DNA of 41,155 nt, from positions 25,399 through 66,553 of the forward strand of contig JANQYI010000032.1 of assembly GCA_030728985.1 (NCBI GenBank), in the 5' to 3' direction. The position numbers were made by a program, and so were the translations under genes. Below are positions 37,805-41,155 of this stretch, one piece after another. Within the stretch, counting starts at the first letter, position 1; each line of letters opens with the position of its first letter. The DNA comes from Burkholderiaceae bacterium. GTDB lineage: Bacteria; Pseudomonadota; Gammaproteobacteria; Burkholderiales; Burkholderiaceae_B. The notes beneath the pieces are model-generated. The model searched no databases. It was not told the DNA's origin and worked only from the letters and a program-made list of their open reading frames with translations.

Positions 37805-38080
37805 TTACCTCTTGGCCTTTTTGTCTGCAGCGTGCCCTTTAAAGGTACGAGTCAGCGCAAACTCACCGAGTTTATGACCAACCATATTCTCGTTAATGTA
37901 AACGGGAACGTGTTGGCGACCGTTGTGAACAGCAATCGTCAGACCGATAAAGTCTGGCAAGATCGTTGAACGACGCGACCAAGTTTTGATCGGTTTCTTG
38001 CCCTTTTCGGCGATCGCAACCTCGACCTTTTTGATCAAGTGTGCATCAACGAATGGGCCTTTCTTGACTGAACGTGACAT
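37805..38080 (-). CDS. rpsS: 30S ribosomal protein S19
   Basis: uS19 sits in the head near S13 and contacts the A-site region. It is 91 residues with [43 protein letters not shown] and [16 protein letters not shown]. It lies 11 bp after rplB. Confidence 0.99.
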
Positions 38081-38091
38081 GATTCGCCCTC

Positions 38092-38919
38092 TTATTTACG
38101 CTTGCGGCGCTGGACGATCATATTGTCCGTCCGCTTGTTGCTACGAGTCTTGTAACCCTTAGCTGGGGTACCCCATGGACTACGTGGCTCGCCGCCTTCG
38201 CCGGTACGACCTTCACCACCACCGTGTGGGTGATCAACCGGGTTCATTGCGACACCACGTACCGTGGGACGAATACCGCGCCAACGAACCGCACCGGCTT
38301 TACCAATTTGGCGCAAGCTGTGTTCTTCGTTGCCAACTTCACCGATCGTTGCGCGACATTCGATGTGCACGCGACGAACTTCACCCGAGCGCAGGCGAAC
38401 CTGAGCGTAAGTGCCTTCGCGAGCCAAAAGAACCGCTGATGCACCGGCGGAACGTGCCATTTGGGCACCTTTACCAGGCAGCATTTCGATGCAGTGAATT
38501 GTTGTACCCACCGGGATATTGCGAATAGGTAAAGTATTTCCTGCGCGGATGGGGGCTTCAATACCCGACAACAGCGTAGCACCTACCTCAAGACCACGAG
38601 GAGCAATAATGTAACGACGCTCGCCGTCCGCATAACAAAGCAAAGCAATGTGGGCGGTGCGGTTTGGGTCATATTCCAAGCGCTCAACTTTTGCTGGAAT
38701 ACCGTCTTTATTTCGACGGAAGTCCACAAGTCGGTAGTGCTGTTTATGACCACCACCACGGTGGCGAATTGTGATGTGACCGTTGTTATTACGGCCAGAA
38801 CCACGAATTTTCTTTTCGAGCAACGCAGCGTGCGGTGCGCCTTTGTGCAGCGTAGGTGTGACCACCTTGAGCATGCCACGACGTCCGGGCGAGGTTGGCT
38901 TAACTTTTAAGAGAGCCAT
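38092..38919 (-). CDS. rplB: 50S ribosomal protein L2
   Basis: uL2 is needed for subunit association and the peptidyl transferase centre. It is 275 residues with an OB-like part, an SH3-like part and the conserved [13 protein letters not shown] loop containing the functionally important His. Its ATG follows the rplW stop directly with no gap, and its ribosome site lies inside rplW. Confidence 0.99.
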
Positions 38920-39216
38920 TTAGTTGACCTCCGCCAGGTTGATTTCTTGACCTTCTTTAAGCGAAACATAGGCCTTACGTTCGTTACGACGGCGACCGAC
39001 GAAACGTCCGAAACGTTTTGCTTTACCTTTACGATTTAAAACCTGGACCGCTTCAACCTGCACCTTGAAAAGCAACTCAACAGCGGCTTTGATTTCAGGC
39101 TTGGTGGCGTCAGCAACGACGCGGAAAGCGACCTGATTGTTTTTCTCTGCGACAAACGTAGCTTTTTCAGTCACGATTGGCGCCAAGATGATTTGCATTA
39201 GACGATGATCGTTCAT
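38920..39216 (-). CDS. rplW: 50S ribosomal protein L23
   Basis: uL23 is at the tunnel exit and docks trigger factor and SRP. It is 98 residues with [27 protein letters not shown]-type core [12 protein letters not shown] and the loop [16 protein letters not shown]. It overlaps rplD by four bases (ATGA), so it is translationally coupled. Confidence 0.99.
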
Positions 39217-39833
39217 GCCAGCATCTCCTCGAGTTGAGCGATGGCCGGCTTGGTGATCAGCACTTTTTTATAATGGATCAACGAAAGCGGATCGGCATTG
39301 CGAGGCTCGACAACAGCTACATGCGGCAAGTTGCGTGTCGCGAGGTAAAGGTTTTCATCGACAGAGTCAGTAATGATCAGCACGGACTCCATTCCCAAGC
39401 TCTTGAGCTTTTCAGCCGCCAACTTGGTCTTTGGGGACTCGAGCGTGAACGAATCAACGATTGAGATGCGGTCTTCGCGAGCCAACTGGGAAAGGATCGA
39501 ACGGAGCCCCGCACGATACATTTTCTTGTTCACTTTTTGGCTGAAGTTTTCTTCAGGCGAATTCGGGAATGCACGACCGCCTCCACGCCACAAGGGCGAA
39601 GATGTCATACCAGCACGGGCACGACCTGTACCTTTCTGATTGAATGGCTTTTTCGTCGAGTGACGAACGGCATCGCGACCTTTTTGAGCGCGGTTACCTG
39701 AGCGAGCATTGGCCTGAAAGGCAATGACGATCTGGTGAACAAGTGCCTCGTTGAAGTCACGTCCAAACACTGTGTCAGGCGCAGCAAATGTTGCGGAAGA
39801 CTGACCTTGGTCATTAAGGAGCTTGATATCCAT
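39213..39833 (-). CDS. rplD: 50S ribosomal protein L4
   Basis: uL4 reaches into the tunnel with a long loop. In E. coli it represses its own operon at both transcription and translation by acting on the S10 leader. It is 206 residues with [33 protein letters not shown] and WRGGGRAFP. It lies 3 bp after rplC. It is the obvious candidate ligand for the structured leader found upstream of rplC. Confidence 0.99.
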
Positions 39834-39836
39834 GGA

Positions 39837-40526
39837 TTAGGCTCCCTTTTTAGCAGGTGCTTTGACAGCCGGGCGCACGAGAATGTCTCCACCAGCATAG
39901 CCAGGGACTGCGCCCTTAACCATCAGCAGACCACGCTCAGCGTCAACACGGACGACGTCAAGGTTTTGCACGGTGCGCGTATCGTCACCAAGGTGACCTG
40001 ACATGCGCTTACCGGGAAAAATACGACCAGGATCTTGAGCCTGACCAATCGAACCAGGCACGCGGTGCGAACGGCTGTTACCGTGCGAGGCGCGTTGTGA
40101 TTTGAAATGGTGGCGCTTGATGGTGCCGGCGAAACCTTTACCAATTGTGGTACCGGTGACGTCAACTTGCTGGCCAGCTTCGAAAACGCTCTCAACAGCG
40201 ACCACGCTACCTGGCGTGAATTCGGCTGCGCGAGCAGGATCGAGACGGAATTCTTTGAGGATACTACCGGCCTCTACGCCTGCTTTGGCGTAATGACCTG
40301 TTTGTGGCTTGGCTACACGGGAAGCGCGACGAGCGCCGTAAGCGACTTGAATGGCGGCGTAGCCGTCAGACTCAAGTGACTTTACCTGGGTGACGCGGTT
40401 GTTCGACACGTCCAGTACTGTCACGGGGATGGACTCGCCATCTTCCGTAAAAATACGGGTCATGCCGACCTTGCGGCCCACCAGCCCAAGCCGATGTGCG
40501 GCAGGCGTGGGTGTCGATTTCGACAT
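39837..40526 (-). CDS. rplC: 50S ribosomal protein L3
   Basis: uL3 starts large-subunit assembly and reaches the peptidyl transferase centre. It is 229 residues with [13 protein letters not shown] and the tip region [20 protein letters not shown], whose Gln is the methylation site of PrmB in E. coli. ATG 40526 has GGAG ten bases upstream, partly inside a small hairpin. It is separated from rpsJ by 192 bp with a strong promoter and hairpins, so it begins a second transcription unit. Confidence 0.99.
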
Positions 40527-40605
40527 CGTTTTCTCCGGGGTAAAAACCCGATTCCCGACTTCGATTGGTCGGGGCTGATAAAACCCGATTATTTCGGGTG
40601 CTCAT
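40372..40605 (-). CDS. Possible upstream ORF overlapping the rplC start
   Basis: ATG 40605 in the rplC leader has GGTGAG about six bases upstream and opens a 77-codon frame. Its first part lies within the hairpins ([19 protein letters not shown]) and it continues out of frame across the rplC start. The Arg and Ser codons arise because the CCCGA/TCGGG stems are read in this frame. I see no known family; it may be a leader peptide or chance. Confidence 0.25.
40536..40599 (-). promoter_or_regulatory. Structured leader of rplC with three hairpins and a repeated stem half
   Basis: In order of transcription: hairpin 1, ACCCGA/TCGGGT (40599-40583, loop AATAA) followed by TTTTATC; hairpin 2, CCCGAC/GTCGGG (40573-40554); hairpin 3, CGGGT/ACCCCG (40550-40536, one bulge) touching the ribosome site. 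The element AATCGGGTTTT occurs twice (40590-40580 and 40553-40543), so either copy can pair with the upstream CACCCGA. The layout resembles an attenuator or a ribosomal-protein autoregulation site. Confidence 0.6.
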
Positions 40606-40636
40606 TTTTATCTCACCAAAATTCGGCAAGTCTTGC

Positions 40637-40666
40637 ATTCTAGCACCTATTTATGCTGCATTGCAA
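40637..40666 (-). promoter_or_regulatory. Strong promoter for rplC
   Basis: Minus strand: -35 TTGCAA (40666-40661), 18-bp spacer ending in TGC, -10 TAGAAT (40642-40637). Five of six matches in the -10, four in the -35, plus an extended TG. The start point would be near 40630, giving a leader of about 104 bases. Confidence 0.7.
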
Positions 40667-40718
40667 GCTTGTTGCGCCTGAAATACAGCAGCCATGCGGT
40701 ACTAGATTTTTAATACTT

Positions 40719-41030
40719 TTATTGCAGTGCGATTTCTACGTCAACACCAGCTGGCAAATCTAGGCGCATCAATGCATCAACGGTCTTATCCGTTGGGTCC
40801 ACGATGTCCATCAAGCGCTGATGTGTACGGATTTCAAACTGATCGCGTGACGTTTTGTTCACGTGCGGCGAGCGCAACACGTCATAACGGCGAATGCGGG
40901 TTGGAAGCGGAACAGGGCCTCGCACCACTGCACCAGTGCGTTTAGCGGTATCAACGATCTCAGCAGCCGACTGATCGATGAGTTTGTAGTCAAACGCTTT
41001 CAGACGGATACGGATTTTTTGATTTTTCAT
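40719..41030 (-). CDS. rpsJ: 30S ribosomal protein S10 (NusE)
   Basis: uS10 is a small-subunit head protein that also acts, with NusB, in transcription antitermination and with NusG in coupling transcription to translation. It is 103 residues, the exact usual length, from ATG 41030 ([19 protein letters not shown]). The in-frame extension to 41042 starts with TTG and is not needed. It lies 54 bp after tuf, past a hairpin, and 192 bp before rplC. Confidence 0.99.
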
Positions 41031-41052
41031 GGCGTTTCTCAAAGAGCGAAAT

Positions 41053-41076
41053 GCTGCGAGCTGTTTTGCTCGCAGC
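41053..41076 (-). terminator. Perfect 9-bp hairpin between tuf and rpsJ
   Basis: GCTGCGAGC (41053-41061) and GCTCGCAGC (41068-41076) pair around TGTTTT. It begins 8 bases after the tuf stop. On the minus strand ATTTCGCTCTTTG follows, with no true T-run, so it may be a weak terminator or a processing site. Confidence 0.5.
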
Positions 41077-41084
41077 GAAACAAA

Positions 41085-41155
41085 TTACTTCAGGATTTTG
41101 GCAACGACGCCGGCGCCGACGGTACGGCCACCTTCGCGGATTGCAAAACGCAGGC
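41085..41155 (-). CDS. tuf: Elongation factor Tu, C-terminal 22 residues (partial at right edge)
   Basis: The reading frame ending in TAA at 41087-41085 translates as LRFAIREGGRTVGAGVVAKILK, which matches the C-terminus of EF-Tu domain 3. The gene continues past the right edge. EF-Tu delivers aminoacyl-tRNA to the ribosome. tuf before rpsJ is the standard str/S10 junction of proteobacteria. Confidence 0.97.
   Translation of the reverse strand, partial: LRFAIREGGRTVGAGVVAKILK

Follow-up and report, generated by a model that had tools for sequence, protein, structure and literature searches.

Does the 192-nt gap between rpsJ and rplC in the ribosomal protein cluster studied here contain a regulatory leader and, if so, which protein would it answer to? 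The cluster lies in the window, a stretch of 41,155 nucleotides on contig C32 of genome G000 (assembly of 2.35 Mb), and its rplC is Alcaligenaceae-like, being 97-98% identical to rplC of Sheuella amnicola and of two MAGs. On the minus strand, the gene order is rpsJ (40719-41030), the gap (40527-40718, of the length originally reported), rplC for L3 as the first gene after the leader (39837-40526, from its open reading frame and rplC comparison), rplD for L4 (39213-39833), rplW, rplB, and further ribosomal genes. We assigned these names from sequence and gene order, and we take the second gene, the presumed source of the regulator, to be rplD from its sequence and place. Contigs frequently stop a little upstream of rpsJ (e.g., L117, L119, L122), perhaps, as we guess, because duplicated tuf genes break assemblies.

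A consensus scan found a sigma-70-type promoter-like site with an extended -10 on the minus strand of the gap (TTGCAA, 18 nt, TAGAAT, with TG before the -10; 40637-40666), in keeping with the near-consensus promoter that had been described there; a scan match is not proof of a promoter, and from its position a transcript start would be expected near 40630. The GCTAGAATGCAAGACTTGCC of this site is kept in two relatives (L002, L003) and nearly kept in a third (L004). Sites of such quality number 3 in the 2156-nt region versus 1.4 in shuffles, and a -35/-10 pair scoring at least 9/12 is present in 22 of 50 gaps from the order versus 18% of shuffles, a modest enrichment. An open reading frame with its ATG at 40638 and an inner ATG at 40605 also runs through the leader and overlaps rplC out of frame.

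The predicted leader, about 104 nt long, folds into local hairpins within 40527-40632, and folding, which had been proposed as a check on the locus, gave better energies than shuffles, though modestly so (z -2.2 to -2.4; at z -2.36, 5 of 200 shuffles were as good), and energy alone is therefore not convincing. Along the minus strand, RNA folding gives a first hairpin (CUUGCC...GGUGAG, 40612-40630) where the transcript is predicted to begin; by eye, leaders of Achromobacter (L006, L008 and L014, for example) have a resembling GCUUGCC...GGCAAG. In the window, this 5' hairpin is followed by a lineage-specific upstream hairpin, shared only with L002, L003 and L004 (CACCCGA...TCGGGTTTT, the latter being copy 1 of a repeat; 40578-40605), by the core or middle hairpin (40554-40573), whose 6-bp stem CCCGAC/GUCGGG closes the octaloop CAAUCGAA at 40560-40567 with pair probability of at least 0.99, and by a small hairpin, GGGU-UUUU-ACCC (40538-40549), also lineage-specific, at the place of which L003 has GGGG-UCCAA-CCCC. 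Pairing probabilities are 0.92-1.0 for the copy-1 stem and the middle hairpin taken together, and 0.61-0.67 for the small one. This last hairpin abuts GGAG, the Shine-Dalgarno sequence of rplC (40533-40536), and the original prediction was right to let the last stem touch the ribosome site. At the rplC start codon, UGUCGAAAUCGACA (40512-40525, minus strand) makes a small hairpin whose letters are identical in L002-L004.

The leader had been read as a switch built from a repeat, AATCGGGTTTT, which does occur twice. Each copy was said to pair with the upstream CACCCGA; copy 1 does so in the stem given above, and copy 2 does not (probability of pairing with ACCCGA 0.000, rounded). The proposed mutually exclusive folds could not be upheld, the copy-2 pairing being 8.2 kcal/mol worse (-30.5 versus -38.7 kcal/mol). 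The sister leader L003 has no second AATCGGGTTTT copy, yet keeps a local hairpin at its place, and CCCGA/TCGGG repeats occur in only 3 of 80 named relatives (L002-L004), with the second copy in two of them, and in none of the 90 further genera sampled from the order. A two-state switch of these repeats was rejected for these reasons. More broadly, we consider it very improbable that the leader is either such a switch or a transcription attenuator like HE of E. coli, even though in the window and in L002-L004 the CCCGA/UCGGG hairpin is followed by UUUUAUC, and five U stand after copy 2. Two of the folds had been called terminator-like, but a scan of the minus strand finds no terminator-like site inside the leader; at least four T come right after the core stem in only 7 of 87 leaders of the order; and the alternative fold is negligible and is not preserved in L003. 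Thus, the anatomy first described is largely right and the switch is wrong, and it had been overlooked that conservation lies in the middle hairpin and its CAAUCGAA loop.

This core element consists of six pairs closing an octaloop, CAAUYGNW, beside the rplC ribosome site, and 78 of the 80 named rplC loci have the word CCAATYGNN(G/T) near the rplC start. Covariation was evaluated in an alignment (A2) of 65 distinct sequences, comprising the window and 64 named loci left after removal of duplicates and one truncated sequence; L058 (incomplete), L069 (loop CAAUAGUA) and L075 (start misassigned) are absent from it. Although the A2 sequences were picked by the word above, that word bears on the innermost pair only. 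In this alignment, 99.5% of stem cells are paired, both sides change at five of the six pairs, and the covariation value is 0.589, compared to 0.204 in shuffled alignments (0/500) and at most 0.102 when the partners were slid. RNAalifold recovers the identical 6-bp stem unaided. A wider set of 103 distinct sequences, including gammaproteobacterial and E. coli rows, has 98.4% of cells paired and all six pairs varying on both sides, most of its rows having been selected for at least four inner pairs; its closing pair is U-A in 56 and C-G in 47. When changes were counted by Fitch's method on an rplC protein tree with 78 leaves, about 31 double changes kept a pair and 2 changes broke one, a rough count from a single-gene tree and one reconstruction. 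The search for compensatory changes in relatives, suggested at the outset, has thus turned them up. Two of the features by which ribosomal protein leaders are judged, a conserved RNA structure with covariation and a consistent place upstream of ribosomal protein genes, are present, and the core hairpin is a real RNA element.

Since the stem is an inverted repeat, it might be taken for a DNA operator or a chance palindrome. However, the frequent G-U pairs (28 of 103 sequences at one of the pairs) speak against a DNA operator, several pair types occur per position, and presence is far above that in shuffles; we give this explanation almost no weight. Short hairpins near start codons can also stabilise mRNA, or be an RNase site or a ribosome stand-by site, and the element could be passive in one of these ways, with no ligand at all. 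Ribosomal protein genes may have cis-regulatory RNAs to which no ribosomal protein binds (PMC7247131), but a passive stem would need no nearly invariant octaloop amid changing stem letters, and such a role seems very improbable to us.

To determine how widely the hairpin occurs, we took the rplC upstream region from one genome of every other genus in the order that gave an rplC match, 90 genera in all. Under a strict rule (loop CAAUYGNW and at least four pairs), the hairpin precedes rplC in 84 of 90, and with a relaxed loop in 87 of 90, compared to 2 and 29, respectively, of 2700 shuffles. Among the named loci, 76 of 80 pass the strict rule, with L058, L059 and L075 among the misses. The stems have a bimodal length distribution, with at least six pairs closed at 79 of the 97 CAATYG sites near rplC starts in the order. 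In 81 of 87 leaders, the loop is 25-71 nt upstream of rplC; in the remaining 6, the assigned start seems too early. By eye, the hairpin is present with one mismatch in L121; none precedes rplC in L117 or L125 in the survey of 90 genera, and it is absent from all four genomes examined of the AT-rich family f15 (L125, L334, L335, L336). The hairpin is thus dispensable for the operon. A covariance model, R1, applied to the window's own genome matched only the window leader at E≤1, with 50 of 1038 first-look candidates scored. In 150 genomes of the order, R1 gave E≤1 in 83; many of these matches are weak and the filters are strict, and for this reason presence was taken from the rplC-anchored count. 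Of 69 gammaproteobacterial loci drawn across the class, 10 by the strict rule and 13 by the relaxed rule have the hairpin before rplC, and none has it before rpsJ, where 60 of these loci offered at least 150 nt of upstream sequence. Of 29 loci drawn across the phylum, only L295 has it, and this locus comes from a genome of the window's own order (G049).

The relation of the core to the ribosome site takes different forms among leaders of the order. In 43 of 87 (shuffles, 20 of 4350), the Shine-Dalgarno AGG has a potential pairing partner in a CCU immediately after the core; in another 24, the Shine-Dalgarno sequence falls within a spacer of at most 16 nt after the core stem; and 20 have neither arrangement. 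The predicted pairing of the ribosome site exceeds 0.5 in only 11 of 86 leaders; such weak pairing of the unaided site fits, and does not prove, a translational control that needs a bound protein.

What the computations provide is a conserved RNA structure, its place, its spread, and its likeness to RNAs linked to L4. From these, we think it probable that the leader is a translational operator of an rplC-headed betaproteobacterial ribosomal protein operon and that L4 binds it. The promoter in the rpsJ-rplC gap would give rise to a separate transcript running from rplC, rplD, rplW and rplB onward. The second gene supplies L4 (uL4), which in its free form, when it is not taken up by 23S rRNA, would bind the CAAUYGNW loop. 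Bound L4 could then block ribosome access by occlusion where the Shine-Dalgarno sequence is a few nucleotides from the stem, and in other lineages its binding might stabilise the small CCU/AGG hairpin that covers the Shine-Dalgarno sequence. The covariation, near-universal presence in the order drawn, and two links to L4 give good support to the original prediction that a separate family of ribosomal protein leaders stands at rplC, comparable with the E. coli L4 leader.

The first link is with the S10 leader of E. coli. According to published accounts, L4 represses both transcription and translation of the S10 operon in E. coli, binds its leader, and requires stem D for control (PMC10931766, PMC7186457, PMC10578931). 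That leader contains CCCAU-CAAUCGUA-AUGGG, 46-71 nt before rpsJ, so that the same operon carries, shortly before its first ribosome site, a hairpin with an octaloop that is common to the betaproteobacterial element and is here closed by U-A. R1 scores it at only 8.1 bits (E 1.8), because its stem is short, and the match rests on the exact loop. We take this hairpin to be the upper part of the attenuator hairpin HE. The octaloop, as CAAUCGWA, is found in E. coli, and the window loop CAAUCGAA also has this form. In the order around G258, which we take to be Enterobacterales (rpsJ 93-98% identical to that of E. coli), only 4 of 30 loci have the octaloop, 3 of the 4 with a changed stem. It is absent before rpsJ in the other 26 loci, and L4 control there thus does not depend on it. 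In 29 of the 30, a C(RAUNK)G hairpin is found (shuffles, 48 of 1200), the listed match in L305 being another hairpin, and we take the C(RAUNK)G hairpin to be HD. Stems D and E appear in PMC10578931, and the HD loop of E. coli shares C-RAU with the betaproteobacterial loop. CAAUYG is missing from E. coli 23S rRNA, no exact octaloop hairpin was found in its 23S or 16S rRNA, and the C-RAUNK hairpins in these rRNAs are a few short ones, located elsewhere.

The two leaders also differ. The E. coli leader precedes rpsJ, and its 32-nt rpsJ-rplC gap is without the motif, whereas the betaproteobacterial hairpin precedes rplC. An HD-like C(RAUNK)G hairpin stands before the core in one of 87 leaders and not in the window, and the attenuator hairpin with its U-run, characteristic of E. 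coli, was not found in the window leader, the 7 of 87 counted above being the leaders of the order with a U-run behind the core. Because it has no HD-like hairpin, few U-runs and a different gene behind it, the betaproteobacterial leader is not filed as an S10 leader or attenuator of the E. coli type. It may work like an L4 leader, and its assignment to ribosomal protein leaders in the broad sense is based on its structure and location.

The second link comes from other gammaproteobacteria. In five of the 29 loci drawn across the phylum (L275, L277, L282, L289, L296), a near-copy of E. coli 23S rRNA, nt ∼285-345, lies directly before rplC and its ribosome site, where the betaproteobacterial hairpin also lies (e.g., L275, GUGGAAUGCUCUGGAAAGGGCAGCCAUAGCGGGUGAUAGCCCCGUACAC). 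Local alignment of these to nt 281-350 scores 25-38 (40/51 to 52/62 identical), compared to at most 13 in 69 other gammaproteobacterial leaders, the class draw, none of which has such a leader. The archaeal LSU model of Rfam matches L289 at 1304-1362 (E 4e-6, 31.7 bits, below the gathering score), and L275, L277, L282 and L296 have no Rfam LSU match up to E 10. Among 145 genomes from the order to which G305 belongs, 10 show the pattern (f157, 5/5; f159, 4/4; f208, 1/5; L354-L363); it also matches by chance in L207, L295 and L159. Nucleotides 295-343 of 23S rRNA are, we presume, the L4-binding fragment, and on that assumption the place upstream of rplC looks like an L4-type operator there. Hence, the leader of families f157 and f159 is seemingly an operator that mimics rRNA, of which we found no report by title or abstract; it is a near-copy of 23S, in contrast to the small betaproteobacterial hairpin.

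A ligand other than L4 was also considered for the same kind of operator. The L3 region of 23S rRNA is domain VI, and L24 binds domain I nearby. With the hairpin preceding rplC in nearly every genus of the order fetched, the ligand might be L3 (the first gene), L24 (the next operon) or a complex of L4, and with several ribosomal protein genes downstream it is unreadable from gene order (PMC7247131). However, the E. coli leader with the identical octaloop is, in the papers cited above, controlled by L4, and the 23S segment copied before rplC, near nt 285-345, lies in domain I and not in the L3 region. We therefore regard another ligand as unlikely, and retain L4 as the probable one.

Searches with Rfam 15 covariance models gave no match at E≤1 in window positions 38000-41155, none on leaders L196, L115, L216 and L312, and only a sub-threshold bxd_2 at the E. 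coli locus. In Eckert and Weinberg (2020), Table 1 contains no such leader and the main text names neither Betaproteobacteria nor Burkholderiales, and we found no report of an rplC-leader motif in the literature by title or abstract, although a prior description may exist. Table 1 of that study does contain a predicted L4 leader of Archaeoglobi, upstream of rplC-rplD-rplW-rplB and with L4 as its proposed ligand, as here; it is archaeal, and the likeness is one of gene context and proposed ligand.

A tentative history, somewhat short of an even chance in our estimation, is that the beta/gammaproteobacterial ancestor already carried the CAAUYGNA hairpin before rplC as a minimal L4 operator. Betaproteobacteria and some gammaproteobacterial families would have kept it; the line leading to E. 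coli would have moved or rebuilt it in the S10 leader, upstream of rpsJ; and other gammaproteobacterial families would have exchanged it for a direct copy of the L4 site of 23S rRNA. If so, L4 control of this operon would be old and general and would not have arisen late in a single gammaproteobacterial branch. In PMC10931766, the E. coli-like mechanism is said to have arisen rather late, and a 20-nt operator with an E. coli-type loop in nearly every betaproteobacterial genus examined would change that picture. It would also account for the balancing of a major ribosomal operon in a large group of bacteria, and would offer for comparison several RNA solutions for one protein: the octaloop, the C-RAUNK-G pentaloop and the 23S copy.

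Betaproteobacterial 23S rRNA was compared at the centre of the same segment. It reads CCAUAG in three of five sequences (G143 and G049, GGCCAUAGCGGG; G007, GGCCAUAGAGGG), and G138 and G031 differ. Two rare betaproteobacterial leader loops, CCAUAGCA (L196) and CCAUUGCA (L126), resemble the betaproteobacterial 23S CCAUAGCG, and the common CAAUYGNA does so less; the likeness is short and suggestive only.

Some leaders carry further structure around the core. In Comamonadaceae-type gaps (L044, L046, L049, L054, L061, L068), the core was seen by eye to be enclosed by a second stem, CUUUCAC...GUGARAG, which has an A-rich bulge on one side and would make for a longer leader structure in that group, and in Corticimicrobacter populi (L026, 1932-2000), tandem small hairpins (GGGUACAACCC, GGGUCCAACCCC) lie between the core hairpin and the ribosome site.
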